Shown one piece after another: positions 10,955-51,100 of a stretch of 64,000 bases of DNA (its first letter is position 1; every line of letters begins with the position of its first letter). A program made the translations under genes and the position numbers. Origin of the DNA: Warburgia ugandensis (lineage: Eukaryota > Streptophyta > Magnoliopsida > Canellales > Canellaceae). The notes beneath the pieces were generated by a model that did no database searches, was not told where the DNA came from, and saw nothing but the letters and a program-made list of their open reading frames with translations. The DNA is taken from the NCBI GenBank assembly GCA_035236585.1, contig CP141128.1:38670684-38734683 (forward strand), in the 5' to 3' direction.

Positions 10955-10960
10955 AGTTTT

Positions 10961-10978: not shown

Positions 10979-12100
10979 ATCATAATGGATTTGTGATTGG
11001 ATCTTTATTTAGGTTGTTTGTCTCTAATCATAGTTCTAAGTTGCATTTGATTAGGGTTTTAACATTGTATTTGCATCATTTCTTTTGTTTTATGCGAGGG
11101 GAATTTGGCAAGGAGTAGCAGTGATCCTATAGACCAAAGCTTCATTAACTTAATTATGATTTTCTTGTTTTCTTAGATTAGGTTTTTGAGTGAACTTGTA
11201 GTGAGGTTCCATTGTAATTTGAAATTATTTATTTTCTTTTAAATAGGTTGTAATAATATAGGACAAGTGTGGGGTATGGTGGCCCACACTTCATCTTCAT
11301 CAGAAACCCTACTAGATGCTTCTCTCACTCTCTTTTATTTTATTAGAGTAGTTGCATTAAATGTAATTTGTATATTGATTAGTAGTTTAATTCATATAGT
11401 TTAGGGTCAACTTATTGCATCTTAGTTGGGGTTATTGTATTAGATTGCACCGATTTAACAAAGTTACTTTATTAGATAGTATATAGGTAGACATTAGTTT
11501 CCTTTCCTTTTATTACATTACACATTTACTGCTTTATAGTGAATGGAACACATTGATAGTAAGGACCCCACAAGAACCTTCATAAGATAATGATTGGATT
11601 TCATTACCAGATCCTTGGCCCAACTAGGTAATCAATTCAATTCCTTGTATGTTAGCGATCCCATCCTATGAATTTTAATTTAAAATTAAGTAGCAAGAGA
11701 CTTAGGGTCTTGAGCTTGTAGGACCCTTTTAGAAGGAGGAGATCTATTGTCACTCTAGTAGCTTCTGAGCATCATGGTTATAGTGGCTATCCAAAATCCA
11801 AATGATTTTTTCACACCTTTCATTGACAGTTGTTAAGTTATAAATGCCTCCTTTTATAAGAAGTGTACTAACCACTTTAGAGCAAGACCTAACTGGTAAG
11901 CAATAGTCAAGCCTGGATAAAAGGAGGAGCTATCTAGATCTAGGTCAGAAAACTACCACTCTATTGATTAACAAAGATTATCAAAACAGCTCGATAGTGA
12001 ACCATTAAGATTGATTGTGCATCATATAGAGTTAGGAGTCACATTCAAAGTTAGGTTGCATCATTTAGATAAGTTTTTCATTATACTACATGCAAGGTTA
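10979..12100 (+). other. Athila-1 untranslated leader with shared module
   Basis: Noncoding leader between primer site and gag. It includes an ACAAGTGTGGGGTATGGTGG block (near 11265) also found in Athila-3 (63656). From about 11546 to 12000 it matches the segment found inside all family-A LTRs. Shared words include ATCCTTGGCCCAA (11608-11620), a CTTAGGGT...TAGGA block and GTACTAACCACTTTAGAGC-like text. No long open frame is present. Confidence 0.7.
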
Positions 12101-13330
12101 TAAATCTCAAAACATTGAGTCAGCACCATTAGATATTGAAAAATGGAAGCAAGTTCAATACTTCTATGAGGCACTGACACCTCAAAATATATATATGGTA
12201 GATGTAGTTAGTGAAGGGGCCCTCATACTGAAAAAATGAGACAAAGGCCTGGGAGTTCTTCCAAACTTTAGCTAAGAATTCCTAGCACTGGGAGTATTCT
12301 AATAGAAGTGAGAGAAATACCCTACCTCAAAAGAAAGGATGCCTATCTGAAATAGGAGTGACCACAGATCTCTTTTAGGATAGATACTTTGGATAAGCAT
12401 TTGGACAAGTTTCATAATATGTTTTAAACAATAAATGCCAAACTACATGCCATCATTTCTACCAATACATCCACAAAACATCCACAAGAGGTTTGTTCTA
12501 TTTGTTCCAGATTGGCACACTTAACGTCAACTTGTCCATGTAATGTACATTAAATGTCTTATGAAACAAGAAAATGCTCTGAATGCATATCACAATCCAT
12601 GCGATAATCCATACTCTAAGACCTAAAAGCTAGAATGAGCTAGGCATCCTACCTTGTCATGGTCAAAGAACAATTGCCAGGGAGGTCCATCTATGAACCT
12701 CTATACAAAACTTTCCTGAATCTTTAGCTCCCCTATAGCTATATAGTTTCCATCTTCCTCAAAAACCAAAGAAATCATCAATTGAAGACAATCTAAAGTT
12801 ACTCCTTAAGAAATAAGATGAGACTAATAAGGCCTTACACAATATCCAGAATGAGAGTAGACAAAGATCAAATGTAAATTCCTAAGCTATTGCCAAATTA
12901 AAAATTCAAATGAGCCAATGTCTCCTATATTGAATGATAGAGGAAAAGGGTAGTTTTCTAGTTTGCCAATTTCAAACTTTAAGGGACAGTTTGAAATAGG
13001 GTCAAGTTTAAGTAGACCACATGAGTAAGCAAAGTCCACAAAAGCCCTTAGGAGTGGCTGTCAAGTTGATAACAAGATGGGGTAAACTAAGGAAACTATA
13101 GAGGAGAATGAACCAGCTAAAACATGGGAGAAAGTGAAAATATAGAAACCTCATACTCCATCTTAGCCTATAGAGGAGGCACCTTATGTGCCTCAAGCCC
13201 CATTCCCTCAATTGTTAAATAAGGTTAAGAAGGGAACTAATTTCAATGAGATAATGGATGTGTTTAATCATGTTCAAATAAATATCCCATTACTTAAATG
13301 CTATTAAAGACATTCCTACTTATGCCTAAT
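12100..13330 (+). pseudogene. Athila-1 gag relic
   Basis: This is a structural polyprotein of the virus-like particle, reduced to fragments in all three frames. The clearest piece is near 12150-12260, where translation gives a FYEALTPQN-like segment followed by MVDVVSEGAL, matching the Athila gag pattern FY-GL-P-T...MVDA--GGAL. Stops interrupt it within 100 bases. The start codon cannot be placed, and the boundary to the protease region is approximate. The open frame at 13008-13211 on the minus strand is a chance frame. Confidence 0.6.
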
Positions 13331-13419
13331 TTCTTAAAGAGCTCTGCACACAAAAGTGCAAACTTAATGTACAAAAGAAAGCCTTCCTCATTGTGCAGGT
13401 GAGCTCTTTGATCCAATAT

Positions 13420-16109: not shown

Positions 16110-16404
16110 GAGGTCCAAAAAGTGGGACGAATCTACCTGGCCAAGGTGAGATTGGTCCTCGAGTGCAAAGGCAAAAGGGAGCTTGACTACAAGACCCACC
16201 CATCAAGTAGCGAAAAAAGTCAGCCTTAGTGATGTAAGGGTGCCAAGTGGAAGGGCAGCTGCTCATGACTACAAGACCCACCCGTAAAGTAGCGACAAAA
16301 GTTGGCCTTAACGATCTAAGGGTGCTGAGTGGAAGGGCAGCCGCTCAATGGATAAAATTACTTTAGAGATAACATGCTGATCTTCCTTAAGAGTTCACAT
16401 CAAC
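16110..16404 (+). pseudogene. Chloroplast 23S rDNA fragment (NUPT) with internal tandem duplication
   Basis: The sequence follows plastid 23S rRNA near the peptidyl-transferase region. It contains TCCTCGAGTGCAAAGGC, GAGCTTGACTACAAGACCCA, GGCCTTAACGATC, GTGGAAGGGCAGCCGCTCAA, then GAGATAACATGCTGATCTTC and AAGAGTTCACATCAACGG. Many differences from the plastid gene are C-to-T or G-to-A, as expected of a methylated nuclear copy. The match is clear from about 16146; 16110-16145 is weaker. An 82-bp unit is present twice in tandem (16184-16265 and 16266-16347), which the chloroplast gene lacks. An overlapping open frame at 16002-16229 is not a gene. Confidence 0.88.
16184..16347 (+). repeat. 82-bp tandem duplication in the 23S-derived piece
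   Basis: Two consecutive copies, each beginning TGACTACAAGACCCACCC and ending GTGGAAGGGCAGCYGCTCA. The copies differ at several sites, so the duplication is old. Confidence 0.9.
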
Positions 16405-18968: not shown

Positions 18969-19714
18969 TGTAATATCCTTAATTTTTAACCCTAAATTAG
19001 CAATAAAATGAATTAATTAAATTAAAATTTCTATGAATATAATTTAGTTTTGAAACCAAATTTAGAGCACGTCGATAGGAATTGAATGATATAAAGAACA
19101 TCAAAAATGGAGTTCAAATGAGAGAGATATGAACATTTAAATTTATAAGGGTATTTTGGTAATTAAATAGGGACACAAATTAGAGGGGGTCATTTTGATA
19201 ATGGTACCCCCTTTCCATCCCTAACCCGTAGCAGGTGGAGAGAGGTGGTGATTTACCTTTCCCTGCGAATTAATTGGATCTACAATTACCAAAGCATGTT
19301 CCCTTTCCATTTCCATGCCAGACACCCAAAGAAAAGCCCTAGTTTTTCCCTTTGCACGCCATTAACACGAATGGAAGTTTGCACACATCATAAGGCTCTG
19401 ACTTCCCATCTCCGGCTCTAATTAGGGAAGCCACACACTCTAACTTGTTATTCATCTTGTTTTCTAACTTTCCCCACACAGATACGGGCTAGATCTAAGC
19501 TGAATGGCCTAGGAAATCAAAATTGTGGTTCATGGTTAGACCCGTGTTAAGAATAGCTTGGATGATAGATCGAAGCCTTCCAATGTGATGATTGGACCCA
19601 AGAACCTTAGAAACGGCAAAAATAGATAAAAAATCATAGCATCTGGGGCTCCAATTTAGCCAAAACAAATCAAACCGCTTGGGTTCATAGTCCCCAATGG
19701 ACGATGTACCCAGG

Positions 19715-19925
19715 ATGCTAACCGAGATGCCCAAGTGGAGACAGTGCACTCGAGCCCTCCATCGCAAGCACACGCTGAGCATGCACGCCCGAGGATACTA
19801 TCGCACTCTGTTATGGACAGTTGCAACGCCCAGCATCTTAGAAACCAAGATGCCTACAGGAGTGTCCCGGTGACTAGGACACATGCGACGCATTCTACGG
19901 AGCATCCCAGAGTCGTGTGTCCTTG
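19715..19925. other. CpG-rich island of family-B LTR
   Basis: GC-rich block containing GCATCTT/AAGATGC (19833-19839 and 19847-19853), a perfect 7-base inverted repeat. It is in the same place as CATCCT/AGGATG in the other family-B copy; the C:G-to-T:A change occurs on both arms. It lies directly upstream of the TATA box. Confidence 0.6.
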
Positions 19926-19944
19926 AGATGTCAGTTTAAGCCAG

Positions 19945-19950
19945 TATAAA
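19945..19950 (+). promoter_or_regulatory. TATA box of family-B LTR
   Basis: GCCAGTATAAACAGGGG aligns with the minus-strand TATA box of the copy at 1996-5051. A further TATATAAA at 20603-20610 is a weaker alternative. Confidence 0.5.
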
Positions 19951-21640
19951 CAGGGGTAAATCACTCCACCGGTGTGTACCAATCTTCGATTTGAAAATCC
20001 ATTGGAATAGTCTCGACGATGCAGACATCAATTTAATCTCTAAACCTTGATCTGAGCATAGTTAGTTGATCAAACCTAAGAAAATGTACTCAATTACTTA
20101 GATCAAGCCGATCAAAGGATGATTAGGCCTTAGAACTTGAATAATTGGGTGATTTAAGGGATGAATTAATGAATCTAAGGAGCGGATTATGAGTATTCAT
20201 CTTAGAATTGATCTAGACCATTAATCTAATCCAGATCTTGGAAACTCGTTGATCTAAGGATGTTCTGACCATCGGATCAAGGTTTAAACTATATATACAT
20301 ACTAAAATGAGTAGATGAACATGAGATGGGATTGATTAATAATAATTAAAGTTGGGATTAATGATCTAATCATAAATCAAAGTCTTAAAGAATGATCCAA
20401 CGGTTGGATCACCATAGATTCCATTGAGATGGAATAAATTGAATCTTTTAGAATAAGGAAACATTAAATTGGTAGACTATAACTCTAATCGATGATCAAA
20501 TGAGGCAGATAGGCATTAAATGTTATGGAAACTGATTAATAAAGGAAAAATCAGACGATCTAGACTGTTGAACCAAATCAAAAGCTAGATCAGGAGGATC
20601 ACTATATAAAGGGATGCATAAATGGACACAACTTAAGAGAAAGTTATAATAGACTTTCGTTGAGGAAAATAATTAATGTGAAATAGTACCGTGATACTAA
20701 CAAGTACAGCAAAGTGTGCGAGCTAATAGGATTACATGCTCGATTGGGTTATCTTACATTGAGGTAGGTAACGACATTTAATGTTGCATCTTGTTTTCTA
20801 AATCTTGCATCATCATATCATCACAATTGATTGTCACATGTTTATTTATTTTGAAGATCGATGAATCTCAATGTTTTATGTCATGGTTTGATATGAGATT
20901 TCGGTAGTGCATTGAATGGGTTTTTCATGATCGATTGTTTTATAGTACTGATACGGTGTATCTTATGTATGATTAGTAAATATCTTTCTTTATCTATTGC
21001 ATCATTGAGATTGGTGGCTTTTCATACAATCGGTGGTGGAGGCTTGGTGGCTAGTCCTTTGAGAGGCTAATCCTAAGATGAGGGGTGTGCCTTGAGGATT
21101 GTGAGCCACAAGTGCTGCTAGTTTTACAACATACGCGATTTTCGTGTTTTGTGATTTATGATGGGTACTCGGTGTAAGATAACCCAGTGGATGTCATGCT
21201 AGGAGGGAGTAGGACTAGCCATCCTATAATGACCCCCATTTTTGTAATATTAAAATCCCATGAAAAGTTCAGTTTTAAAGATAAGGGCATTTTGGTCATT
21301 TCACTAGTCTCCTTGACTAAACCCAGGAATTTGGTCCTAAAAATGGTTCCATTAGATGCATCTTGGAAAAAGGAATCCAACGAGACCAAAATCACCCAAA
21401 ATGGAGTTAAAATGAGCAAGTTATGGCCCTTTGAAGTTCAGGGGCAAAACTGTAATTTTTACAAAAACGACTTAACCTGAAAAACACAGGGGCCCGTTTT
21501 GATACGGGCACCCTGTTGTCTTCAACCTCTAGAGGGTTCTAGAACGGCGGTGATTGGAGGAGAAATCACCGCCATTCTGGAGGTTTCTCCACCGCCATTC
21601 AAAGGCGGTGAGAGCCCCCTCTAGAACCATCTCTTAGCTC

Positions 21641-21648
21641 TATAAATA
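21641..21648 (+). promoter_or_regulatory. TATA box of family-C LTR
   Basis: TATAAATA within GCTCTATAAATAGAGC, itself a palindrome. It lies 417 bases into the LTR and is probably the core promoter. Confidence 0.7.
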
Positions 21649-21834
21649 GAGCTCTTGGGTGCCTCTAATGGCAGCCCAAAACCTTGGAGAAAAGCCATCG
21701 TGGAGCAGTGACCTAGAGGGGAAAACGAGGAGATAAACCCAGCAACAAGCCAAGTACGTCCGAGATCGCTCAAAACCCATCTCCCCTATAGTTCCAAGGT
21801 CAATTTTCCTAAGTTTTTGCATGAAAAACCATGC

Positions 21835-22140
21835 AAAACGGAGCCCAGGAGAGCCACCAAGGACCCAGGGACGTTCCCTGGGCCGCACTGGTTCAGTAGG
21901 GGTCGAACCAGGGTGTCCTGAGGATGCCCCGGTCCCCCAGACGACGGAACGTTCCATGTCGTCTCTATTTGGAAAACCAAACGGGCGCGTCGAAGGACGG
22001 GAGGAGAAGTACCGCGCGTCTGCAGAAGCGCCCGCTGAGGCACACACCGCATACGTGCAGCGCACTAGCAGCGCGATGATTTTTGGTTCCTTAAGGAAGC
22101 CAGGGCACACGTCGCAGACGCGCAACGCCCTAGCATTCCG
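21835..22140. other. CpG-rich island of family-C LTR
   Basis: GC-rich block with many ACGC/GCGT words about 200 bases downstream of the TATA box, so inside the presumed transcript. The equivalent block in the left-edge family-C LTR is 1-330, but the two share little sequence compared with their flanks. Confidence 0.55.
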
Positions 22141-24406
22141 TCTTTTTGTCTTTAAAGACTCTATGTACATATGACACTAAAACGCTTATAACTTGAGATC
22201 TAGAGCTCTGATTGAGGTTCCGCAAAAGGCGTTGTGTCCGTGTCAACGACGAGGACACATCCAAAATATAAAATCCTTGATCAAGACCTAATCAAAGGGA
22301 GGCATGACCCTTAGAATAGGATGGTGGCGCGTGGCCACTAGACCTTTGGAAAATTGATAATACCAAGGCCCAATTAGGACCTTAGGATACCCATAGGCAT
22401 AGGGATGGACCCCTAATGCCTAAGTAATAAGACCCAACTATTCTAAAACCCATAAAAGATGGGTCAAACTAACCTTGAGTCCCCAAACCATGTTTAGGAG
22501 CGTACGAGGACAAATGGGTTAGTGCGACCTAGCCAGGTAGGTGCTCTATCACTATTAGATTCTTTTAAAAGAACTATTATTATTTTGAGAACACATGTTT
22601 TAAATATATGTCTTGATTTGCATGAATTAATTCAGCATGCATGATAAATGCTTTGTACATAGCCATGCTTTGAAATGATTGCATATACATTATGCACATA
22701 TATGGGTTGCAAACAAGTGCATACATTGCATGATTTAAGTACTTGCAAAGATTGCATGTCCTTGAGGGTTGCCAAAAGACGCTGGAGTGCCGAGGGTCAG
22801 GCAGTTGTGAGGGACCCAAAGAGGACAAGTTTTAACAAGAGGTTTTGGCTTATTTGATCTTATGTGATTTGGGCAAGAAAGCCCGTGGGTGCTATGCCGA
22901 GGGGTCTAGGTTGGCCACCCGATCTCTACCACTAATAGGTGGATGGGTACCGTGCCCAAAAAGAGGCAAGTCCCTACGTCGACTGCATGTGGTACAGGGG
23001 GCTACCACTGGTGTCACTGCACTGGGTCGACGTGTCATAGGCCCCGTGGAGGCTATGACCGAGTGTCCTCAGGTACCCAGGGACCACACGGCGAGGAGGT
23101 CGTGGGCATAGTGGACCCTATGGTTTGATGATTTATGTGCATCGCATATGCCATGATATGAGGTTGGTCGACCATACCATGATAGATATCCATGAGTTGG
23201 ATTCCATAAAGCATTTTATGCATATCATAATGCTATGATATATATGTGTATGATACTTTCGATTTTGGATTATATGATCCTTTAAGTCGTTAGTATTTCA
23301 ATTTGACAATGGATTTTGATGTCGACGTTGAACGTGAGTATTCAAACATGCACATGTTTTGGAAAGAGCATATGATTTTTAAACATCGCACGCATTATAA
23401 AACTAGTAGTGATAGACTCCTACTGAGTATAATATATACTCACTCTATCCTTAACATTTTTCAGGATAGTTCCGCTCATAAATGGAAGATGTCTCAAGAG
23501 ATATTAGTGCTATGAGCAAGTGAATCAAAAAGAAGGAAGTTATACATGTAAGTAAACTCTCAACCCTTTGGACATGTATTTGTATTTAATTACAGTTGGG
23601 CTGTGTCTTTGTATTTGGATAGACCTGGGGAAAAACATTTATGATTTCTGAAGTTTTTCAAAAACCACTTTGGTTGTTGTGAAGGCAAATGACACTCGGG
23701 GTTTTCAAAATGAGTTTAAAACTAAAAGGTTTTTCGCTGCATTACATGGTTTCTATGAAATGGTTTTTAAATAGGGATGCATCCCGCCTTAGGAAATTAG
23801 GTATTGCATTAAAAAAAAAATGCATGAGAAAACCCGGGTCATCACACATCCACCCTCTGAATTTATGATGTGATAGACACCTACCCACAAATGGCTTTCT
23901 ATTGGGGATTGGTAACATAAGTAGTCCACACTACCGGTTTAAGCCTTCCCATGGGGACAGACGTTAAGTCTCCCGTTATGGTGTCGACCGGGAGCGACAG
24001 TGGTTGAGACCCGGAAGTAGTTGCCACTGTAGCATGACTATCCATACTCTTGGTCTATATGCTTGTATGATGAGTATGGAGATGTTATTGTATGCCTGGG
24101 TGTGACAACACTCAGAGGATTGATATGAGTACTCATGATCTGTTGTACGAGTATATGGGATACTCGTGGGACCCACGTACTTTGGGGTGCCCTGCATGTT
24201 TATTGTATGCTCATTGAGATTGGATCATATCATGTTTTACATCCATGAGATTCATGTTTCATCGCACATGATGTCTTAATACTATATTGGCATTGCTTAT
24301 GATACTTATGTTCCCTAGACATTATGACCTACACTATATCAGCATTGTTATTCAATTTTGCTTTTTATGTTTCATTTGTTATTACATTAACTGTCTATGT
24401 ACCTAC

Positions 24407-24451
24407 CAAGCATCGCTTGCTAAGGCATTATGTTATTGTTGCAATGCCTCA
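24407..24451 (+). promoter_or_regulatory. Conserved palindrome + hairpin, family-B LTR
   Basis: CAAGCATCGCTTG (24407-24419) is followed by a stem TAAGGCATT (24421-24429) with AATGCCTCA (24443-24451), eight of nine pairs. The single mismatch fits a G-to-A change of an original TGAGGCATT. Confidence 0.65.
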
Positions 24452-24814
24452 GATATTGAGAGAAAGGTAGGAATGATGAGGAGCCAGATGAATAGTGATC
24501 AGCATATCTCATTTTGAAGTATGTTTTAAATTTCACATGGACTGTATATGTATATCCGTCTCGTTGGACTTAATTATATTAATGTTGGGAATGTGGCTGT
24601 TGATTGGATGAATCTTGGAGTTGTAACTTATTTTAAAAATGTTACTTGAAAAATGAAAATTTTATTTGAGTTTTGAGTCCATGGTTGACACTTGAGTTTT
24701 CTTAAAATGAAATTAATTGAAATTCTCACTATTTTTGGTTTTTAAAAATTGGGGCCCCACCTTTCTAAAAGTTTTATTAAAAAGTGTTGGAAAAACCCAA
24801 GTCGTCATAGTATA

Positions 24815-27355: not shown

Positions 27356-27363
27356 TATAAATA
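27356..27363 (+). promoter_or_regulatory. TATA box of family-A solo LTR
   Basis: TATAAATA in GCCTATAAATACAACC, 591 bases into the LTR. The same box is at 34636-34643 in the Tekay 5' LTR and on the minus strand at 42591-42598. Confidence 0.75.
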
Positions 27364-28017: not shown

Positions 28018-28260
28018 AATGGCTCCCAAGACGCACACGTGACGCACCGTAGAAAACGGCATGTACACTGCTCGTGGGGCGTTGTCCCAAGCAAGACGAC
28101 GGCGCATTCATCAAATCCAGTTTACGGGCGCGCGGACGACGAGCATTTTGCTCGTCCCGTCCGCGTCTGTGGACGCCCCCGCAAGGGCGCTTCGTGCATT
28201 CCTCCCAGCGGACGCGCTCGACTAACTGGATGCGTCTGCTTGGTTTGGTTTTCCTCCCGA
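28018..28260. other. CpG-rich island of family-A solo LTR
   Basis: GC-rich block with ACACGTGACGCAC (a G-box-like CACGTG overlapping TGACG) near 28036, a strong hairpin at 28132-28164 (arms GCGGAC-GACGAGCA and TGCTCGTC-CC-GTCCGC) and a GCGTC/GACGC hairpin just after. It is shorter and largely different in the sister copy at 41840-41960. The open frames across it carry no domain. Confidence 0.6.
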
Positions 28261-34635: not shown

Positions 34636-34643
34636 TATAAATA
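34636..34643 (+). promoter_or_regulatory. TATA box of Tekay 5' LTR
   Basis: TATAAATA within CACCTATAAATACCCC. The equivalent in the 3' LTR is deleted. Confidence 0.75.
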
Positions 34644-37600: not shown

Positions 37601-38463
37601 CGACATGGGATGTACATGTTGAACACATGACCTTATGTTGACAAGTGTAATTTTAATACTTGTATTAAATCCCCTAAAACCCTTATGATCCAACTAAACA
37701 CATATGAAATGGTTAAGTTAGAATTGAGGACTGGACTCTAAGTGAATATGGAACGAGAAGATATTCCTGCCCTAAGTAAATAGACAAATTGTCTGATACG
37801 TATGAAACCTAATTTACATACAAGCATGGAGGCTTGTGGTTTTATTTTAAATAGGCATAAGCCTGGGGATGCTATGCTAGGGGAGTTACAAGGGTTTGGC
37901 TACCCACTTCCCAAAATTTGATGATTTGATGATACCTTGCCCTATGGGAGGCTTAAAGTCGAGTGGGGCAATTATGGGAAGGCCACCACTATGAAAGTCC
38001 CGTCTCCCCATATGGGTAGTGACATAATATTTTCCATCGTGGTATTAGAGGTGAACAAGGCAGTTATCTGAGTAAGCTAGTACGGATCAGACTGCAGCAT
38101 AGTAGTCCTTTATTATTTTGCACTATGATGTATATGATGTAGGCATAGTGAAATGCCTTATGTTTTGGCGTGATGAAATGCCAGTAATTGTATATTACTA
38201 GTATTTTCGAAGAAGGGAAATTCCTAGTATAGGACTAGCTAAAATACTGATTTCTCTTAGTTTAAAGAATTGATCAGCTTAGTTGGGAATGACATTTGAC
38301 TACTTTTATAAATTTGACGGATTTATCCATGAACAGTATGCATGTATAAGGATGTACATATATTATAAAGTAAAGAGTTGGATACATGAGTATGTTTATG
38401 AATAAAGGGATTATGGAGTATTAGAATTTTACTATTAATTATTATGCTTATTGAATCCCATAC

Positions 38464-38491
38464 CAAGCATAGCTTGCTGAGATGTTGTAAA
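38464..38491 (+). promoter_or_regulatory. Palindrome and left half of hairpin, split by insertion
   Basis: CAAGCATAGCTTG (38464-38476) is followed by the arm CTGAGATGTTGTAAA (38477-38491). The other arm, TTTACAGTATCTCAG, is at 43220-43234, on the far side of the nested LTR. Joined, 13 of 15 positions are complementary. The insertion target GTAAA is the tip of this stem. Confidence 0.7.
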
Positions 38492-38895
38492 TTTGATGAC
38501 CTGGGTTTTTGAAACATGATTTGTAAAGTATTTTGAAAGGCAGGGCTCTTAAGAGTGTAAAAATTTTCGCAAAACAAAGCAGCAAATTTTTTTTTCTTTA
38601 GAACTTGTTTTGAAAACCCAAGTCACCACTTCATACATAACATAAGTACAATTTATGTACAAAATAAAATTCCATTGAAGGAATATACTTTTATTAAATT
38701 CCAGGATCCATCCAGTAGTTCACATTACAGCCAAATCTATTACAGTACTTATCCAAATTACATAATGCAGAACTCAAGCTCACCATACACTAAAACTCTC
38801 AACAAAGAAAAATACATGTCTTCAAGGGTATACCTTGAAGATTATTCTCTTCAAGTCTTCTATCATCTTCAGCTCCTAACTTTCCTTCCCTGTAT

Positions 38896-38939
38896 CTGAG
38901 ATATTACAACATTTACAATATCTCAGCAAGCAATGCTTG
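38896..38939 (-). promoter_or_regulatory. Conserved palindrome + hairpin, inverted solo A LTR
   Basis: CTGAGATATT (38896-38905) and AATATCTCAG (38917-38926) form a perfect 10-base stem. CAAGCAATGCTTG (38927-38939) is the adjoining palindrome. Confidence 0.7.
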
Positions 38940-41900
38940 GTAGGGGATTCAAGAAGCATAATAATTGACAAGGTAATTCCAATACTCCATAATCTCATTA
39001 TCCTTAAACATACTCTTTACTTCGTAAGTTATGTATATCTATATACATACATACCCTTCATGGGTAAACCAGTTAAATTTGTGAAAATAGTCAAATATCA
39101 TTCCCAACTAAGCTTATCAATTCTCTTCATTTTGAGAATTTAGTATTTCAGCTAATCTGATACTAAAAATTTTCCTTCTTGGGAAATATTGGTAATATAC
39201 AATTACCTAGCATTTCATTATCCTATAACATAAGGCATTTCACTATGCCTATTCTCATATGCATCATAGTGCAAAATAATCAGAAACGTTGCTATGCTGC
39301 AGTTTGATCCATACTAGCGTGCTTGGATAACTGCCCTATTCACCACTGATACCACGGTGGAAAATCTTATGTCACTGCCCATATGGGGGGGCAAGACTTT
39401 CATAGTGGTGGCCTTCCCATAATTGCCACCACCCGACTTTTAGCCTCTCATTGGGCAAGGTATCATCATATCATCAAATTTCAAGGAGCGAGTAGCCAAA
39501 CCCTCATAACTCCTCTAGCAATAGCACTCCCCTAGGCTTATGCGTATTAAAACAAACTCACAAGCCTCCAAGCTTGTATGTAAAATAGATTTCATATATA
39601 TTAGACCATATGTCTGTTTACTTAGGGCTGAAATGTTTTCTAGTTCCCTATTCACTTATAGTTTAGTCCTTAACCATCTTATATGTGTTTGGTTAGATCA
39701 TAAGGTTTTCAAGAGATTTAATACAAGTATTAACATTACTTTTGTTAACATAAGATCACGAGTACAATCATGTATATCTCATGTAAATGCATTCATCAAA
39801 TCCTCCTACCTTTAAGGATTGATCTCTTTTCCCCAAATCTTCCATGATCCTGACTGATGTATATGATCTGTATATCCATGCGTATTGTCAATATATAAAT
39901 TATGAACCATCCTATTGATCACTAGATCTGATGTTTAGATCATTCATATCTAAGTATTTTTCTATCTCTAAGTCTTTGTATGTCCATCTCCTTGATTTGA
40001 TATTTCATAGATCCATTGATTGACAATCTACACATGTTGATAAAGATCAAGGTCCTAGATCTTCTATCATCTAGTTCTTCTTTGATCAAAGTTCAGTTAT
40101 TGGATCATCCCTATGGAGGATGATCTTGGTTTTCTTCCTTGAATCATCTTTGATCAAGGGTTTGGATTATCTAATATAATGAACTATAACAAGCATACTA
40201 ATAAACATGCATACTAAGTACAATATAGTATTCTTATTCTTATTGTTCTTGATCATCCAAGATCTAATAGATCTTGTTTGATCATCCTTATCTTACTTAC
40301 TATTTTTATTAGTGTTAGGTAATTTACTAACCTTTTATGCTCTTATTATTATTATTTAACCAGTTAATGTGCTGGTTGAAGGTAGCTTATTCAAGCCTAA
40401 ATCTAGACTGTTCCTCTTATTTCCAATTGGCTAAGGCTTACTAGCTGAATGGGTGAACACAAAGTGGTTACTTCAATCCTCATGTAAGGAGGTGTTTAGA
40501 CCTCACAAACGTCAACGGAAGGTAGGGGAAGAGCGAGGCTCTATTAGATAACCCCCTTAACCACTATGTTCACCATTCACTAGAATGACCATAGCTCAAC
40601 CTTTCATAAGGTTCCTATAAGCATGTTTACCCTAAATACTCTTTCTAATGGATTTTAATTAAGTCCATGAATATTTATAATGTCATTCATGGGGTTTATT
40701 ATTCTTCTCCTAGTTTGGGCCAAGAATTTGATAATCCTTATATTGTCCTACTAACTATAGCCCTTACTAATTAAGTCCAAAGTACTCCATTCTTATTTGT
40801 GTCATAAAACTCTACTTTCTCATTAGAATACATTTTTGATGTTTTATGCTCTTTATCTCATAACAAGTAGATCTACTAATAACATTTAACCATAAATGAA
40901 TTATAAATTCAAAGCATAAAACTACATAATTTAACATTTAATGATAATGAGACAAGGTACTTAAAATTACTCTAATATGATTTCCAACTAATATACCTTA
41001 ATAACTCAATTTAAACTAACATGGACTTAAGGTATAATCTCATACTATAATATAAACTTATATGAAATTCTAGCATTATCTTAAGTTAGAATGGCATGAA
41101 ATCATACTAAAGTGCCCCTAAGATAATTAAATCTAGCAACAATGAAATCACATATCATGCTAAAGTCTAAATGTTATACTAGCATGCTTTATAACATAAT
41201 CATATTTAAAATGCTATTATATAAAATGAAACTAATTACATTAACATTTTTAGAAACCTTTACTTATGATCCAACCATTAGATCTTAGATTTTTTTCCTT
41301 TGATTAAGGGTATTGGTTATATTTAGGGGATTTTCTTTATTAAGGTCCAAAGATCATATTGATCCATTTTTGTCTTAATCCATCCATGATTTCTTGGATT
41401 TCATTATATCAACATTCATTTTATCCATCCCAAGGATCTGATCACACTTGATCTCATTGATCAAGTGGGTCCCTTTGTATTTTTAGGGTTTTTCTACCAT
41501 AATGGGTAGATCCCTTAATATATCTCATATATGTCCAAATAAACCATAGATCTCACTTTATTTCAATAGTATATCATTAGTGAAACATATTTTCAAGATC
41601 TGATCATCTCAGATCTTGAAGATCTAGGTAATTGGAAACTTGTTTCTTTAATACAGAAAGGTTTATTGAATATTATGTCTATTCTATCATTTCATCAGAA
41701 AATAGAGATTTCAAGCTTTCCATAGCTTTTTTCCGATCTTAATTTGGAGTTCAGATGACTCCGAAATTAGGTCTGGAAGTTCACAGTCCTTCCCAAGGCC
41801 TGGATTTGATCTGGGCCCAAGGAACGGACGGCCCAGATTAGTCGACCGAAATGCGTTCGGTTCATCAGGTGCGTCCACTTGGATGAAATATGGAAGCGCC

Positions 41901-42590
41901 CTCACAGGGCATCCATGGACGCGCGCGGGACATCGTCGATCCGATCGGGAGATCGGACAGTCCGTTTGGATCATCCAATCAATCCCTTCTCAATTGAGGG
42001 ACCAAACCTTCTCCGATCATTGTGAAAATTCTACCCTAGGGGTTTTGGACCATTCTAGATCGATTTGTGTAGTCAGAATTTTCATTAGAGCACTCCACCA
42101 TCCTAAATTAAGGGTTTTGGTATTTACTTTATTTTTACCTTTTTATTACCAAAATAAATTACAGTAAACTAAAAATTACATAAACCTGTAGTAAATATCT
42201 ATATAAAGTATTCCCACCTACTTGATTAGAGAAAAAACATTGTTTATATGCCCAATTTAAAAGGAATACCTTGTTGATGAAGATATGGCCTAAGATCTAC
42301 CTTTCTTGCTAATTTCCTTTATTTGAACCGTTGGATCTTGAAATTGCTTTGGGGGTTTTGTAGAATAGATATGGTGGGAATTTTTGGATGGTCAAATTGA
42401 TGAAATTAGATCTAGAACAGAGTGCCTAATTGATTTTAGGTCTCTTGTTCCAATCTGAAAAGAAAAAGAAATTTAAAAGAGAGATATCTCTTGAAAATTT
42501 TGGGGAAGAGATCTAGATCTAATTTTTTAGGGAGAGTGAAGAAAATTTCACGGGAATTTTATGAGAATTTTTGGAGGGTTTCTGGGGTTG

Positions 42591-42598
42591 TATTTATA
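42591..42598 (-). promoter_or_regulatory. TATA box of inverted solo A LTR
   Basis: The minus strand reads GCCTATAAATACAACC, identical to the box at 27356. Confidence 0.7.
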
Positions 42599-43662
42599 GG
42601 CATTTTGGTCTTTTTCTTATGACTATAATATTTAATTTTTTATTACTAAATGGCATGAAAGTCTCCCATGCTCCATGTTTTCTTCCCCATGCTCCATTTA
42701 TCTTCCCCAAGACCAGCTGATGTTTGTTGACCCATGACTTCACGTGGGCTGCTCATAAGATTCTTTTTTGGGTCCCTTGTGGGCCCCACATGGTGTAAAA
42801 AGACCGTTTTGCCATTTATGTATAAAATTTTGGGTTTTATTCCCATGATCCCGAATTTGAGTGCACTTAGTGGTGTTGGATTTGTATTTCTTAGTACATT
42901 CTAAATTTTGATGTCTCATATTTTGATTTTTGGGAGATTTTGATTTTTAGGTAAAATTACTATTTTACCCTTTTGTCCAACAAATGAAGAAACTTAAGGA
43001 TTTTTCTTCCGAATTCAGAATTTGTTGCACTTATAGTCATTTTGAAGGGTTTTCCAAGTTTAATTTCAATTGTACATGTCTTATTATTTGATTATACTTT
43101 TATAAAAAGTATATTCTAAATAACCCTAATATTTCAACCCGAAATATCTGAAACTTAAACTTTATTGATTTTCTCAATCAATTACAAAAATTGAGTTTAT
43201 TATAGTAAATGTTTCAATATTTACAGTATCTCAGATATAGAGAAGGAGAGTTAGGAGCTCAAGACTATAGAAGACTTGAAGAGAATAATCATAAGGGTAT
43301 ACCCCTTGAAGACATGTATTTTGTTTTGTTTGAGAGTATTGTATTGTAATGAGAGTTTCATTATATGGTGAGCTTTGAGTTTTGGATTATGTAATTTGGA
43401 CAAGTATTGTAATGGATTTGGGTTGTACTGTGAACAACCGGATGGATTTTGGAATTTAATAAAAATATATTCCTTTAATGGAATTTTATTTTGTATAAAA
43501 ATTCTACCTATGTTATGCATGAAGTGATGACTTGGGTATTTCAAAACAAGTTCTAAAGAAAAGAATTTTTGTTGCTTTGTTTTGCAAAATTTTTTACCAC
43601 TAAGGGCCCTGCCTTTGAAAATGTATTACAAAATGTGTTACAAAAACCTGGGTCGTCGTAGT

Positions 43663-43674
43663 TGGTATCAGAGC
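43663..43674 (+). promoter_or_regulatory. Tekay primer-binding site (initiator tRNA-Met)
   Basis: TGGTATCAGAGC lies two bases after the LTR end. It is complementary to the 3' end of plant initiator tRNA-Met, the standard primer for Tekay and most plant Ty1/Ty3 elements. Confidence 0.95.
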
Positions 43675-43791: not shown

Positions 43792-44712
43792 ATGCCACCA
43801 ATGAGAGTCACAAGGTAAACATCTCAAATACTCCAAAAGACACAAGTACGCAAGCTTAGACTCAGCCTGAAGTGAAACACAATACACCAGCAGCAATACC
43901 AGCTACTCCCACACTAGTACAGGGACAATCCTCCCTCGTACCAAGTGAAGAAGTTAGAAAGTCTCCATTAGCACCAGAAAAAGTTGACAAAATGATGGAG
44001 AGATTTCAAAAGATGGCTATGGTGTATAATGGCAAGGGTGAAGTTGAGAAGGCTGAGGAATGGGTGTATGAAGTAGAAAGGATTTTTAGTGTTTTACATA
44101 CTCCTCTAGAGTTGAAGGTGAAATTTGCCACCTATCTATTAAAACAAGAAGCTACATTTTGGTGGAGATCAGCTAACAACACCTTCTCAAATTTTGAAGA
44201 TACTACATGGGAGGAATTTAAGGAAGTCTTTAACCACAAATATTTCCCTTCTCATGTACAAGAGAGAAAGTTGATAGAGTTTCTAGAACTAAGATAAGGG
44301 AACACGTCAGTGGTAGAGTATGATAACAAGTTCACACAGTGAATCAATTCATTGAAGGGCTGCACCCAGGACTGAAAATAAAGGTACTTGGTACTAAACC
44401 CATGACCTTGGCAGAATGTGTGGAAATGGCTTCCAAGTTTGAAGAAGAATACAAGAAGATTCAAACCACTAAGTTTAGTGGAGGAAATGATAACCTAAAG
44501 CCCTTCCAGAAGAACAAAAGACCTTGGAACAATTTTAAGCACTAAGGAAATTAGAGGAACAATGCATAAGAGCAAAATAGACAACCATGTCCAAGATGCA
44601 GAAAATTTCGCCAAGGCAATATTTGCCCTAGACTCGACAATAGCAACCACAACGGTTTTGATCAAGTGCGATAATTGTGGGGAGTATGGACACATCACCA
44701 CCTATTGTTCCT
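43792..44712 (+). pseudogene. Tekay gag relic
   Basis: Capsid-nucleocapsid polyprotein. A likely original start is ATG at 43792 (MPPMRVTR), which meets TAA at 43816. The main capsid piece is 43872-44297 (141 residues), with WVYEVERIFSVL, FATYLLKQEATFWW and FKEVFNHKYFPSHVQERK, the conserved gypsy gag core. A frameshift leads to 44339-44545 (FIEGLHPGLK). The zinc knuckle lies at 44667-44708: C-DN-C-GEYG-H-ITTY-C, the CX2CX4HX4C pattern with all four ligands, back in the first frame. It is broken by at least two stops and two frame changes. Confidence 0.9.
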
Positions 44713-44717
44713 AACCA

Positions 44718-45300
44718 TTGGCGGTTAAGGAGGCAAAACCAAAAATTGCCCCTCAACATCAAGGGAGGGTCTTCACCGTCACTAATGGCCAGTCTAGACC
44801 ATCTAATGCAGCAATTGCAGGTACATTACTTATAGCTAACAACTATGCCAAAGTACTATTTGATTCTGAATCTATACATTTCTTTATATCTTGTGTATTT
44901 GCATCTAGTATATAATTGTCAGTGAAAAACTTAGGATTTAATCTAGACGTAACAACTCCAGTTGGAAAAATAGTTAAATGATAAGAATACTTGCATAATG
45001 TACCTGTAGAAGTATTGGGCAAAAGAATGGACATAGACCTCATTTTATTGATCATGGTGGACTTTGACATCATATTGGGTATGGATTGGTTAGCAAAATA
45101 CTAGGTAGTTATGAATTGTCACAAGACGAAAATCACATTTTGCATATTGTGTGATGAAGTATTAGTATTGTATGGGAAACACAGTGACTTAGACAAATCC
45201 ATTATCTCCGCTATGAAGGTAGTCAAACATATGTCCAAGGGGTGCCAGCCATTTCTGGCAATAGTAATTTCTTTAGATGTTGAATAGCCCAGGATAGTAA
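44718..45300 (+). pseudogene. Tekay protease relic
   Basis: Aspartic protease of the polyprotein. The first part, 44718-44915, contains VLFDSESIHFFIS, where the family has the catalytic DSG triad. Asp is at 44862, but the Gly codon is now Glu, a G-to-A change. The second conserved block, FDIILGMDWLAKY, lies near 45065-45104. Stops occur after each block. The expected enzyme would be inactive even if read through. Confidence 0.85.
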
Positions 45301-45953
45301 AAATTGAAGTACTCAGGGAATTCCAAGATGTTTTTCCAGAAGAACTACTAGGATTACCCCCACATAGGGAAATTGAGTTTACCATTGAAGTAATTCCTGG
45401 TACAACTCCAATTTCTAAAGCACCTTATAGGATGGCCCCAGCAGAGTTGAAAGTTTAGGTACAGGAATTGTTAGACAAAGGGTTTGTTAGACCAATTAGT
45501 TCACCATGGGGAGCACCAGTAATATTACTGAAGAAGAAGGATGGGTCTATGAGATTGTGCATTGATTATGGAATGTTGAAAAGTGTCCCGGTGAAAAATA
45601 AGTATCCCTTACCTCGCATTGATGACCTCTTTGATCAACTCCAATCTACGAAGGTCTTTTCCAAAATCGATCTTAGATCAGGATATCATCAATTGCATAT
45701 TAAGGATGAAGATGTACCATAGTCAGCATTTAGAACTCGGTATAAGCATTACGAGTTTCTAGTCATGTCTTTTGGGTTGATCAATGCAGCAATAGTGTTT
45801 ATGGATCTGATGAACAGAATCTTCAAGGAATTTTTGGATAAATTTGTGATTATATTTATTGATGATATACTGATTTACTCTACTAGTATCAAGGAAAATC
45901 AACAACACTTACAAATTATACTAAATGCCCTCAGAACACAAACTATTTGGTAA
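45300..45953 (+). pseudogene. Tekay reverse transcriptase relic
   Basis: The fingers begin with [14 protein letters not shown] near 45306. 45468-45722 reads [33 protein letters not shown] and [12 protein letters not shown], the standard Ty3/gypsy RT blocks. One TAG at 45721 separates it from 45765-45953, which is in the same frame and carries MSFGLINAA and the active-site FIDD (45855-45866) in FIDDILIYS. Catalytic residues are intact. An in-frame TAG near 45457 precedes the first long piece. Confidence 0.92.
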
Positions 45954-46026
45954 ATTTAGTAAGTGTGAATTCTAGTTAGAGAAAGTCAATTTCTGGGGTC
46001 ATGTAATTTGCAAGAATGGAGTAGAA

Positions 46027-46650
46027 GTGGACCCCACCAAGGTTGAATCAGTAATGAATTGGGAGAAACTTAAAACAGTAATAGAAATACTTAGTTTTCA
46101 TGGAATGGTAGGATACTACCATAGATTCATTCAAGGATTTTTTCGTATAGCCCTTCCTTTGACTTCATTAACTAGAAAAGGGGTACAATTCACTTGGACA
46201 GAAGAATGTGAAAATAGTTTTCAAGAGCTAAAGAAGAGGTTAACTATAACACCAGTATTAACTTTGTCATCTGGAAGTGGGGCATATGAAATATACTATG
46301 ATGCTTCAGGCAAATGGTTAGGAGGTGTGTTGATGCAAAATGGGAAGGTCATTGCTTATGCATCTAGACAATTGAATAAACATGAAATAAATTACCCAGT
46401 ACATGACCTAGAATTGGCAACTGTAGTTTTTGCATTGAAAATTTGGAGACATTATTTGTATGGAGAAAAATTCATTATATTCACCTTTCATAAAAGTCTT
46501 AAATACATCTTCACTTAGGCTAATTTGAACATGAGACAAAGAAGATGGATGGATTATATCAAAGACTATGATTTTGCCATCCAATACCATCCTGGAAAAG
46601 CGAACGTAGTAGCTGATGCATTAAGTAGACAACCAAGAATTGTACTCACA
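46027..46650 (+). pseudogene. Tekay RNase H relic
   Basis: After a frame change the thumb and connection region ([19 protein letters not shown]) leads into RNase H. YYDAS carries the first Asp at 46300, followed by [13 protein letters not shown] and [21 protein letters not shown] with the Glu. The segment normally TDHKSLKY reads TFHKSLKY, so the next acidic residue is lost. A stop follows at 46516; the domain end [16 protein letters not shown] is still recognisable to about 46632. Confidence 0.9.
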
Positions 46651-46699
46651 AACATCACCATTAAATCAGCTTTTGTAGAAAGAGTCCTTAAAGCCTAAG

Positions 46700-47870
46700 A
46701 AGAAGATACAATAACTCAGGAATTATGTAAAAAGAAAGGATTTTGTAAGGGTACAGATGGGGGTATACTTTTTTAGGAGAGATTGGCGGTTCCTTTAAAT
46801 ACAAACTTGAGAAAAGAACTGTTATAAGAAGCCCATCTGTCAAAATTTTCCATACACCCTAGGGGTACAAAGATGTATCAAGATTTGAAAAGAAACTTTG
46901 GGTGGGAAGGCATAAAAAGAGAAATAGGGGAATTTGTGGCTAAATGTCTAAATTATCAATAAGTAAAAGATGAACACCAAAGACCAGCTGGAATGTTACA
47001 AACACTGGAACTTCCAGAATAGAAACGGGACAACATCATTATGAATTTTGTAGTAGGATTGCCAAGGACCTGGGCAAGTCATGACATGATTTGGGTGGTT
47101 GTGGATAGGTCAACAAAGTCAACACATTTCCTTCCAATTAGGCAAAACTAGTCAGTTGATAGTCTAGCTAAGTTATACATCAAAGAAATAGTAAGTCTTC
47201 ATGGGATTCCACTATTCATCATCTCTAATAGGGATGGAAGATTTACTTCAAGATGTTGGAAGAGTGTACAACAAGCCTTGGGAACCTCACTTAAATTCAG
47301 TAAAGCATTTCACCCCTAACCAGACGGTCAATCAGAAGGACTATTCAAACTTTAGAAGATATGTTGAGAGCATGTGCATTAGATTGGAAATGGAATTGGG
47401 ATGAACATCTTCTGTTAGTAAAATTCGCGTATAACAATAGTTTTCAAGCAAGTATTGGTATGGCACCATATGAAGCATTGTATGGATGGCCATGTTGATC
47501 ACCAACCTATTGGAGTGAAGTTGAAGAAAGAAAGCTAACAAATTTAGAACTAGTGAAACAGTGTACAGACAAGGTTAGATTGATACATAAGAGGTTGTTA
47601 ACAGCACACAGTCAGCAGAAAAGTTACGCAGATAAAAGACGTAGAAACTTAGAATTTAATGTGTGGGATCATGTATTTTTGAAAGTATAACCAGTCAAAG
47701 GACTAATAAGGTTTGAAAGCAAAGGAAAACTAGTCCTAGATTCATCGGTCCATTTGAAATCCTAGAAAGAGTTGGTCCAGTGGCTTACAAATTAGCCTTA
47801 CTACCCCAACTCTCAAAAATACACAATGTCTTCCATGTATCTATACTATAGAAATACCTACAAGATGATA
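46700..47870 (+). pseudogene. Tekay integrase relic
   Basis: Zinc-binding region near 46828-46965: both His are visible (EAHLSKFSIHP), but the second Cys of the CLxCQ motif reads Tyr (KCLNYQ). In the catalytic core the two Asp positions read Asn: MNFVVGLP for MDFV (AAT at 47043) and IISNRDGRFTS for SDRD (AAT near 47226). The Glu region continues in another frame near 47330-47400 (RTIQTLEDMLRACALDW). The C-terminal [19 protein letters not shown]-like segment lies near 47743-47810. About eight stops or frame changes occur. Most altered codons are G-to-A or C-to-T changes. Confidence 0.87.
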
Positions 47871-47887
47871 GCCATGTATTTCAAAGG

Positions 47888-48079
47888 GTGCTAGAAGAGC
47901 TAAAGCCATACCTAACCTTCCAAAAGAAGGCGATATGGATCTTGGACTGGAAGGAACATAAGTTAAGGACCAAAACCATTCTGCTAGTCAAAGTCCTGTG
48001 GCAACATCACTCTTTTGAGGAAGCCACGTGGGAAACAAAAGTAGAAATGAGGAAGACACACCCTAGTCTATTTGATTAA
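47888..48079 (+). pseudogene. Tekay chromodomain at pol C-terminus
   Basis: A 63-codon open piece ending with the pol stop codon. It reads KKAIWILDWKEHKLRTKTI then LVKVLWQHHSFEEATWETK and EMRKTHPSLFD, the chromodomain that many chromoviruses carry after integrase to target heterochromatin. This C-terminal type fits the Tekay/Del lineage. The open piece itself is uninterrupted, but it is cut off from the rest of pol by stops upstream. Confidence 0.93.
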
Positions 48080-48116: not shown

Positions 48117-48128
48117 AAGGGGGGAAGA
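48117..48128 (+). promoter_or_regulatory. Tekay polypurine tract
   Basis: AAGGGGGGAAGA immediately before the 3' LTR start at 48130. It would serve as plus-strand primer for reverse transcription. Confidence 0.92.
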
Positions 48129-48129
48129 T

Positions 48130-51100
48130 TGTAATAACTCCAATTTTTGAAAATTGATTGAGAAAATCAATAAAGTTTGAAATTTCAAAAAGTTTGACCT
48201 CGAATATTAAGTTTGAAATTCTCTTTATATAGAGATTAAAACATCATTTAAAACTTAAAAATTATGAATGTACTCGAAAAACCAATCGAAATGACACTAA
48301 GTACGTTCAATTTCGAGTTAAAATGCAAAATCCCTAATTTTCTTTATTTTATGAATAAAAGGGTAAAATGGTAATTTTACCAATAACTAAGAGCTAAGAC
48401 ACCAATATTTAGAATTTACTCAGAAATATGATTCCAATGCCACTAAGTACACTCAATTTCGAGTTCAGGAGAATAAAATGAATTTTTCACCATAAAAGAG
48501 CAAAATGGTCCTTTCACACCTTGTGGGGCCCACAAAAGAATCCAATGCCTAGGAAACATGTAATGAGTGGTCAAACCACTACCCGTTGCTAGTGGCAAAG
48601 AAGGTGGTAGTGGAGGGTCCAATGTTAATTTAATATTTAAAAGAATTAAAACAAATTATTACATAATCATTAAAATTCCCATGAAATCATCATGCTTACT
48701 TTGAAAAACAAGATCTAGATTCCTTCCCAAAATTCCAAAATTCTAAAAAATCTCCCTTCTTGCACTTTCTCCCTCCTCTCTCTAATTGGAATAAGAGACC
48801 TAAATTCAATTCGGCACTCTGTTCCAAGTTGAATCTCACAAATCACACCGTCCATACAATCCTAGACTACCTTATCCACAAAACCCCCACATCAATTTCA
48901 AGATGTAACGATGCAATCAACGGGAAATCACAAAAAAGGGACTATCCGGCTATCTTATCATCAAAGGGTATTTATTTTAGATTGAGCTTCAAAACTACGT
49001 TGTTTCTCTAATCAGGTAGGAGGAACCACTTCTTAAACTTATTTCATGTGGTTTTATGTAATTTTTTATTTTTCTATAATTAGTTTTAGGTTAAAATTTA
49101 TAAAAATAAAATAAGAGCCAGAATCCTTCAATTCTGGATGATGGAGGGCTCAGATAGAAAATCTGAGCCATCCAATTGATTCAGAAGGGTCCAAAATCCC
49201 TAGGGTAGAAGTTTCAAGAATTTTTATTAAGTTTTGAGCCCTTAATTGTAAAGGGATTGATTGGACAGTCCAAAACACACTGTCTGATCTCCCAAATCAG
49301 ATCAGTTCCTGGAATGCCGTGTGAAATGCCACATGGAAACGCACCACATAGTAGTGTTTCCATGCACGCATGCCGCGTGCAACGTCGTCCCAACAGGACA
49401 ACCGCGACAATGCCAGTCACGAGGGGAGCGTGTTATGCGTGTGTTGTGGTGACGGGCGAGGCGATCTCTCCGCCTGGCCCCCTCCACCGATCAATCCAAG
49501 TCGTCTATTCTAGTGGGCCCAGATCAAATCTAGACCCTAGGAACGACTGTGAACGTCATAGTTTAATTGTGGAGTCATTTAAACTCCAAATTGAGATCGG
49601 AAAGAAGCTATAGAAAGCATATAACGTCTATTTTCTTCTGAAACCATAAAATTGATAAAAACATTCTAGAAACTTTTTGTTTTCAAGAATTTAGTTTCTA
49701 ATTTCCATGATCTTCAAGATTTGAGATGATCAGATCTTGGGGATCTGAATTACTGATGATATAATGTTGAAGTCAAGTGATATCCATGATTGATTTGGAC
49801 AGATCTATGATAAATTGAGGGCTCTACCCTTTATGGCAGAAAAACCCTAAAAGTACAAAGGGACCCACTTGATCAATAAAATCAAGTATGATTAGACCCT
49901 TAGGATGGATTGAATAAATGATAATATGATGGAATCCATTGAGATCATGGACTGAATATAACATGAACAAGTTGATTAGGTCTTTAGATCTTAATGGAGT
50001 AAAAGCCCTAAAATTAATTAAAACCTTTGATTAAAAGGAAAAGATCTAAAATCTAATGGTTGGATCATAAGTAAAGGTTTTTAATAATCTTAATCTAATT
50101 AGTTTCATTGTCTTTTATTTGATGATAGTATTGTAAATGTGATTTATGTTATAAAGCATGATGGTTCTTAAATTTAGCATGATATGTTCTATGTGTTATT
50201 AGATTGTTATAGTTTGATAGATTTAATTATTTTAGGACCATGTGGGCATGATTTCATGCAATTGTAACTAATGACCATGGTAGGATTTCGTGTTAGATTA
50301 GACTATGTTATGAGATGGTACCTTAGGTCCATGATAGTTTAATTTGAGTTTATAAGATAAAATACATTAGTTAGAAATCATGCTAGTGTAATCTTCAGTA
50401 CCTTGTACCATTATCATTAGGTTGTTCAATTATGTAGTTTTATGCTTTAAAGTTATAATTCATTTATGGTTCAATTTTATTAGATTTAATTATTCAAGTA
50501 GTTATGAGATAAAGAGCATAAAATACCAAAAATGAAATCTAATGAGAAAGTAGAGTTTTATAACACAAATAAGAGTGAATTATTTGACTTAGACTTAATT
50601 AGTACGGACTATAGTTAGTAGGACAATATAAGGATTATCAAATCCTTGGCCCAAATTGGGAGAATAATAAACCCCATGAATGACATTTTATATGTTCATA
50701 GATAATTAAAATCAATTAAAAAAAGTACTTAGGGTTAACATGCTCATAGGAACCTTATGAAAGGTTGAGCTAAGATCACTATAATGAATGTTGAACATGG
50801 TGGTTAAAGGAGTTTTCTAATAGAGCATCCCTCTTCCCCTGCCTTCCATTGATGTTTGTGAGTTCTAAACGCCTCCTTGCATGAGGATTGAAGTAGCCAC
50901 TTTGTGTTGACCCATTCTGCTAGTAAGCCTTAGCCAATTGGAAATAAGAGGAGAAGTCTAGACTTAGGCTAAAATAAGTTATCTTCAAACAGTAAAACAT
51001 TAACTGGTTGAATAATAATAATAAGAGCATAAAAGATTAGTAAATTATCTAACCCTAATAAAAATTGTAAGTAAGATAAGGATGATCAAACAAGATCCAT

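Follow-up and report, generated by a model that had tools for sequence, protein, structure and literature searches.

How does the same non-coding segment come to lie in the long terminal repeats (LTRs) of one retrotransposon lineage and in the leader of another? The question is raised by a stretch of 64,000 nucleotides of the Warburgia ugandensis genome (GenBank assembly GCA_035236585.1, 1.12 Gb in 14 contigs; contig CP141128.1, positions 38,670,684 to 38,734,683), here called the window, which is dense plant retrotransposon DNA with 34% GC. It holds three Athila elements (Athila-1 to Athila-3) and four copies (A1 to A4) of a long LTR, family A, which by resemblance would belong to the Tekay/Del chromoviruses. 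An earlier reading of the letters alone, the original prediction, held that a module of about 450 bp is shared by every family-A LTR and the Athila leader. The explanation to which we give somewhat better than even chances is that a segment of the Athila leader was captured by family A and that selection has retained it there as a cis-acting component of the genomic RNA.

The homology of the A-LTR segment and the Athila leader segment is well supported. With blastn, the Athila-1 leader (about 11603-11957) matched four of four family-A LTRs at 63-66% identity (E values 1.9e-31, 7e-29, 4e-24 and 5e-22), the best match reaching 66% over 367 columns. Tested against 300 dinucleotide shuffles per pair, Athila-1 scored 65-87 with the A LTRs, far above every shuffle (means 12.2-12.4, largest 22), and reverse-complement controls scored 9-13. 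Athila-2 passed the same control moderately, with scores of 21-23 (z 6-8) over shuffle means of 11.8-12.0 and a largest shuffle of 19; when all of the window was scanned, it stood at 23 and the next unrelated windows at 19, and profile matches (E 1e-5) additionally back its homology. The part of Athila-3 that the window contains, 81 bp, did not go beyond its shuffles (scores 10-14, z 0.2-3.0; means about 10, largest 16), whereas the element continued 3.5 kb past the window end gave E 1.4e-29 against A1 (range to 3.9e-23 with A1, A2 and A4 tried). Thus, of the seven predicted copies, those in Athila-1 and the four A LTRs stand, that in Athila-2 stands in part, and that in Athila-3 becomes significant only with DNA beyond the window. 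The predicted shared words were found at or near their expected places and in the expected order. TTAGTAAGG is exact in five of the seven copies (A1, A2, A3, Athila-2 and Athila-3) and variant in A4 and Athila-1, and a 33-base pattern common to both forms has five sites in the window at up to three mismatches, where none is expected; it had no exact match in viral contigs, a comparison that is little informative for plant DNA. Over the full segment, A1 shares 0.61 identity with Athila-1, 0.59 with Athila-3 and 0.47 with Athila-2, and Athila-1 shares 0.75 with Athila-3 and 0.54 with Athila-2.

The segment occupies 11548-11990 in the Athila-1 leader, 29178-29600 in A1, 36580-37000 in A2, 40370-40777 on the minus strand in A3 and 50590-51010 in A4, each detected by blastn, shuffles and profile (features are on the plus strand unless stated). 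In the Athila-2 leader it lies at 53868-54265, with a clear 5' half and a weak 3' half, and in Athila-3 it starts at 63930-64000 and runs about 350 bp beyond the window end. The shared segment is sharply bounded and measures about 350-420 bp in the four A LTRs. Its homologous core is shorter than originally described, with a length of about 340-360 bp from blastn and of 265-341 bp from the profile, plus a short 5' extension around TAGTAAGG. The four A copies represent three insertions: A1, A3, and the pair A2 and A4 of one element, of which A2 is split by A3. To delimit the homology from the Athila side, the window was searched with a leader profile of 1735 positions that starts at the primer-binding site (PBS), ends in gag and was built from 30 genome loci including Athila-1. 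The profile matched Athila-1 at model positions 2-1730, Athila-3 at 3-695 (where the window ends) and Athila-2 at 246-844 and 1303-1728, and the four A LTRs only inside positions 669-1049 (E 1.6e-32 to 7.7e-25); its other reports in the window were a colinear Athila-2 stretch, 955-1087 (E 0.1), and one chance-level match (E 0.68). Tiled A-LTR profiles at E 0.1 gave no match into Athila outside the segment.

The placement of the segment, far downstream of the TATA box in the LTR and after the primer site in Athila, agreed with the original prediction. In A1 it begins 1.82 kb downstream of the TATA box (CTATAAATAC at about 27356, 27356-27363; also present in A2 and A3, not found in A4) and ends 1.87 kb ahead of the LTR end. 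In Athila-1 it lies 2.06 kb downstream of the TATA box (about 9489) and 0.59 kb downstream of the PBS. Judged by these TATA and PBS positions, the segment would fall, as had been predicted, within the 5' RNA leader of both element types, a placement that we regard as supported.

All three Athila elements carry the segment, inside a leader otherwise common to them. Among the three chromovirus-type LTR families of the window, only A carries it. Family B (18969-24809, target duplication GTATA) is split by family C (21225-23846, target duplication CATCC), which is nested in it; both share LTR ends and 3' blocks with A, and B, C and a second B-like copy scored at shuffle level with either form of the segment (60 shuffles each). 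Other parts of the window scored at or near chance. Since the three Athila elements have the segment and the two relatives of A, B and C, lack it, its capture by A from Athila is the simplest account. An exchange between the lineages is thus supported, and the direction from Athila to family A moderately so.

We then considered how fast the segment changes. Sites fixed between the two A subfamilies (A1 equal to A3, A2 equal to A4, the pairs different) were counted apart from the other variable sites, which mostly arose after insertion. Of 418 sites in the segment, 15 were fixed differences (3.6%) and 57 were other variants (13.6%). The fixed class was about three times rarer than in the neighbouring stretches, 28251-29028 and 29712-31043 (11.0%, p 5e-7), and also rarer than in the rest of the LTR (12.9%, p 6e-10). 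Other variants did not differ from those of the neighbours (15.8%, p 0.30) and were slightly rarer than in the whole rest of the LTR (p 0.03). The eight least diverged of 171 sliding windows (440 columns) all lie within 29103-29711, and fixed differences per 100 bp are 2-6% inside the Athila homology and 10% and 22% at its edges. Because divergence is patchy along the LTR, running from 4 to 19% per 100 bp among the neighbours and reaching 22% at 29666-29765, the p-values make the segment look more exceptional than it is. On the Athila side, Athila-1 and Athila-3, a pair chosen without regard to the segment, are 0.42-0.63 alike in the LTR and 0.75-0.79 alike in the leader at 11198-11618. Thirty Athila genome copies (185 to 870 of 870 ordered pairs aligned) are 0.81-0.85 alike in the segment, 0.70-0.78 in the LTR, and 0.77-0.83 downstream until 1.4 kb past the segment start; this sample is biased, as the Athila copies (L013-L041) and the further A copies (L002-L010) were picked by the segment itself, and the argument does not depend on it. 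The slow change indicates either constraint or exchange between the A subfamilies, and we hold constraint on the segment to be moderately supported.

No stop-free run longer than 60 codons exists on either strand of six copies. Rfam gave no match above the gathering score in the window and none in Athila-1; two matches at chance level lie beside the A1 segment (E 2.1 and 3.1). The leader position and the slow change fit a cis-acting RNA element. The account that we favour would then run as follows. The segment would be native to the Athila 5' leader; family A, of chromovirus (Tekay) type, would have acquired it into the transcribed R-U5 of its long LTR before the two A subfamilies split; and selection would have kept it in A as a cis-acting part of the genomic RNA. 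The likeliest route would be template switching by reverse transcriptase (RT) between co-packaged RNAs, in both of which the segment lies some 1.8-2.5 kb from the 5' start, and capture at the DNA level would be the alternative. Template switching had been proposed at the outset as an example; the exchange between lineages stands, but not the route, for which capture of DNA is equally open. Function is the weakest step. A role in RNA selection or dimerisation during particle assembly is weakly suggested, and preferred, because the segment is in the leader of both RNAs, non-coding and slowly changing. A more far-reaching version, which we put forward as rather doubtful, would make the segment a portable non-coding RNA module under purifying selection in two Ty3/gypsy clades, moved from the post-PBS leader to R-U5, through which a host factor common to both lineages, or the particles of the other lineage, would recognise the chromovirus RNA. 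If that were true, lineages would trade packaging signals besides proteins.

Several results weigh against the capture and selective retention of the segment. Its direction depends on two relatives, B and C, that lack the segment, and the unrooted tree splits A from the three Athila copies (support 100), which leaves the direction undecided; in the same tree Athila-1 groups with Athila-3 at a support of only 51 and the Athila-2 branch is long. The place relative to the PBS is not kept, being 0.59 kb after it in Athila-1 and 1.9 kb before it in A, so that a packaging role is not favoured. The slow change in A could reflect exchange between subfamilies instead of selection. Across the wider block, 29029-29711, the scarcity extends to the other variants (11.4% vs 15.8%, p 0.004). 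Low values are found elsewhere in the LTR too, with 4-7% per 100 bp over 30366-30765 and one site of 52 where the LTR starts. Among the A copies, positions that agree with Athila-1 do not vary significantly less (p 0.13). As to structure, the RNAalifold consensus of the segment is more stable than its column-shuffled controls (z -4.6), but a different stretch of the LTR has a still stronger structure (z -8.2). Folded singly, three of six copies are stable (A1, A2 and A3, not A4, Athila-1 or Athila-2), and so are A1 and A2 in antisense (z -3.0 and -2.5). Folding with covariation, suggested earlier as a check, showed no surplus of compensated pairs: the full alignment has 10 double-change pairs against 11.0 in column shuffles, a number reached by 82 of 120. 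Taken alone, the 3' part gave 10 against 5.7 (reached by 5 of 120), but this is one result out of three cuts. A covariation signal of 10 pairs against 3.6, obtained on the structure's own alignment, was rejected after it failed the column-shuffle control. Of the predicted functional leader element, the exchange between lineages and a slowed evolution that fits function are supported; a role in packaging, dimerisation or translation would be conjecture, with covariation no higher than in controls.

Among other explanations, a functionless capture is the one that survives best, and we consider it possible though on the unlikely side. An Athila fragment would have entered an A LTR at the DNA level through nested insertion, deletion or repair, and the low divergence would come from recombination or conversion between the A subfamilies. 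Nesting of just these elements is seen in the window, with A1 inside an Athila LTR and A3 inside A2, covariation is lacking in the segment, and the slow block 29029-29711 extends somewhat past the Athila homology. The family-A genome copies also look mosaic, with diverged 5' parts and similar 3' parts, about 23% apart near 27.7 kb and 1-9% from 29 kb on, in a sample biased by the choice of copies. Against this, the slowest part coincides with the Athila homology, with the rise at both edges given above, and the Athila leader is slow relative to its own LTR as well.

A role not in packaging but in splicing or translating the long leader, with the segment acting as a splice donor, a shunt or an entry site, is very unlikely. 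All seven copies have TAGTA, TAGGA and GTAAG without variation, and the donor that scores highest in the Athila-1 leader falls within the segment, at 11896. Of 29 genome copies, 83% keep TAAGG at 11560 (percentile 0.97), and a leader intron is plausible in A, B and C. The donor score at 11896, on the other hand, was reached by 61 of 200 shuffles, and its GTAAG is present in 55% of the 29 copies (percentile 0.61 among the 5-mers of the segment), so that it was rejected as a specially kept donor; the donor form of A (CTA, not CTG, before GTAAGC) falls outside the top eight of every copy, and in A the segment would fall within the predicted intron. We find it hardly more credible that both clades inherited an ancient leader part of plant Ty3/gypsy elements vertically and that B and C lost it. 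The unrooted tree and the similar TATA distances (1.8 and 2.1 kb) are compatible with such descent, but two of the three chromovirus-type LTR families are without the segment, it sits on opposite sides of the PBS in the two elements, and by plain identity A is nearer to Athila-1 (0.61) than Athila-2 is (0.54). The alternative named in the original prediction, a small free-standing mobile repeat that entered each of the two ancestors, is very unlikely and found no support in the window: candidate places in the genome are many (at least 3541 and at least 7781, with 40 of each scored; 40 of these 80 were looked at and are LTR or leader copies where checked), but the Athila segment is continuous on both sides with the leader common to Athila copies, its edges show no inverted ends or flanking duplications by eye, and the 64 kb hold no free copy.

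Capture of the Athila leader segment by family A, with retention by selection, would mean that deep lineages swap non-coding parts that are invisible to protein trees. The cis-acting signals carried by plant Ty3/gypsy RNAs are, to our knowledge, mostly unmapped. The block common to two clades, the contrast of presence in A and absence in B and C, and the slow change together pinpoint about 400 nucleotides as a candidate signal. Chimeric plant retrotransposons and trans-packaging systems such as BARE-2 and Cassandra are known, in which families share leader or LTR signals via recombination; these are Ty1/copia or non-autonomous elements, whereas the exchange proposed here crosses the divide between chromoviruses and non-chromoviruses and shifts the block across the PBS. 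A cross-lineage shared leader of this kind did not appear in the titles or abstract starts of the open-access matches listed. Family A resembles Del/Tekay chromoviruses in its PBS of tRNA-Met type (TGGTATCAGAGC at 43663), which most chromoviruses but not non-chromoviruses have (PMC6317226). Del LTRs are described as the most variable in length (PMC4029996, PMC6317226), and BAGY-1, placed under Del in PMC6317226, has an LTR of 4.2 kb according to PMC1142308; unlike in family A, LTR sequence derived from Athila is not mentioned in the excerpts of PMC4029996 and PMC6317226. The conserved motifs of Sireviruses (Ty1/copia) are alike in being non-coding, conserved far above their surroundings and credited with a regulatory role (PMC2829016, in excerpt), but they lie within one Ty1/copia genus, whereas the block of about 400 bp described here is common to two Ty3/gypsy clades, placed inside the LTR in one clade and downstream of the PBS in the other. 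Diaspora, a soybean element of the Athila clade, has a tRNA-Asp PBS and a non-coding stretch of 873 bp from LTR to gag with predicted splice sites, which had no database matches at publication (PMC1142308); it is likened here by description only, and its structure section reports no cross-lineage segment. Excerpts of PMC12786077 name no mapped packaging signal for any plant Ty3/gypsy element.

A candidate leader intron was observed in A, B and C, with an AG|GTAGGT-type donor after the TATA box and an acceptor-like CAG near the LTR end. The donor ranks best in A1 (27737), A2 (35008), B (20764) and C (22537) and second in A4 (49016, GTAGGA); that of A3 is one base off and outside the top eight. 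Shuffles reach the score of a single donor in roughly 10% of cases (22, 18 and 21 of 200). In seven of nine further genome copies the donor is present as CAG|GTAGGT or CAA|GTAAGT, variants that look like compensated U1 pairing, and the other two copies are unaligned there. The 3' site candidate is best in B (24452) and C (23464, CTTAACATTTTTCAG|GAT), sixth in A1 (31060) and outside the six best in A3 and A4. If such an intron is real, the segment would be removed from the spliced A RNA and left only in the genomic RNA. Just 5' of the acceptor-like site lies a short palindrome, AAGCATTGCTT in A and TGAGTATAATATATACTCA in C, within 31000-31060 (A1), 24400-24452 (B) and 23415-23464 (C); these are alike in form and different in sequence, and may possibly represent a conserved hairpin. 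An intron upstream of gag was described in 2005 as then unknown for any LTR element (PMC1142308), and plant elements are generally intronless according to excerpts of PMC12786077, with Ogre and EVADE as exceptions.

The remaining architecture of family A is as follows. A1 (26765-31467, 4.7 kb) is a solo LTR within an Athila LTR, with the target duplication ATTAC at 26760-26764 and 31468-31472; the empty form of its site is seen in the Athila-1 LTR (8498-9943 and 9938-10949, compared with 25227-26765 and 31468-32450). A2, a 5' LTR, consists of 34145-38492 and 43206-43660, separated by A3 (38495-43205, minus strand, limits approximate), and its partner is the 3' LTR A4 (48130-52934). Directly after A2 stands TGGTATCAGAGC (43663-43674), which we take to be a PBS of tRNA-iMet type, matching the expected word exactly. 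The broken gag-pol of this element (43860-48079) lies in separate open pieces with gag, protease, RT and RNase H; in ten pieces Pfam recognised, in order, Retrotrans_gag, RVP_2, RVT_1 and RT_RNaseH, together with a weak chromodomain match under the cut-off (E 0.005), and integrase was not seen in the ten pieces searched. A second PBS-like word, TGGTATCAGTGGTGAACAGGGC or similar, occurs within the family-A LTR at 30599 (A1, about 0.87 kb ahead of the LTR end), 38040 (A2) and 39343 (A3, minus strand).

The 5' LTR of Athila-1 extends over approximately 8498-10958 and is followed by a degraded word at 10961-10978, presumably a tRNA-Asp-type PBS, with 4 of 18 positions differing from the form we assume. 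Across 12 Athila genome loci, four including Athila-1 have this word at the expected place with 4-5 of 18 differences, and the remaining eight have it with 6-8 differences, some off the expected place; it was not recognised in Athila-2. In ten pieces of Athila gag-pol, RT and RNase H were found in Athila-1 and RT below the cut-off in Athila-2. The gag-like pieces of Athila-2 begin at about 54786, some 500 bp past the segment, with a weak Pfam match at 54980-55078 (E 0.034), and presumably carry the Athila-type gag motif. The junction of leader and gag in Athila-1 (12000-12240) looks rearranged, and the open piece 12069-12236 resembles what we take to be a later part of Athila gag. In or near Athila-1, an 82-bp unit forms a tandem pair, 87% alike, at 16184-16347.

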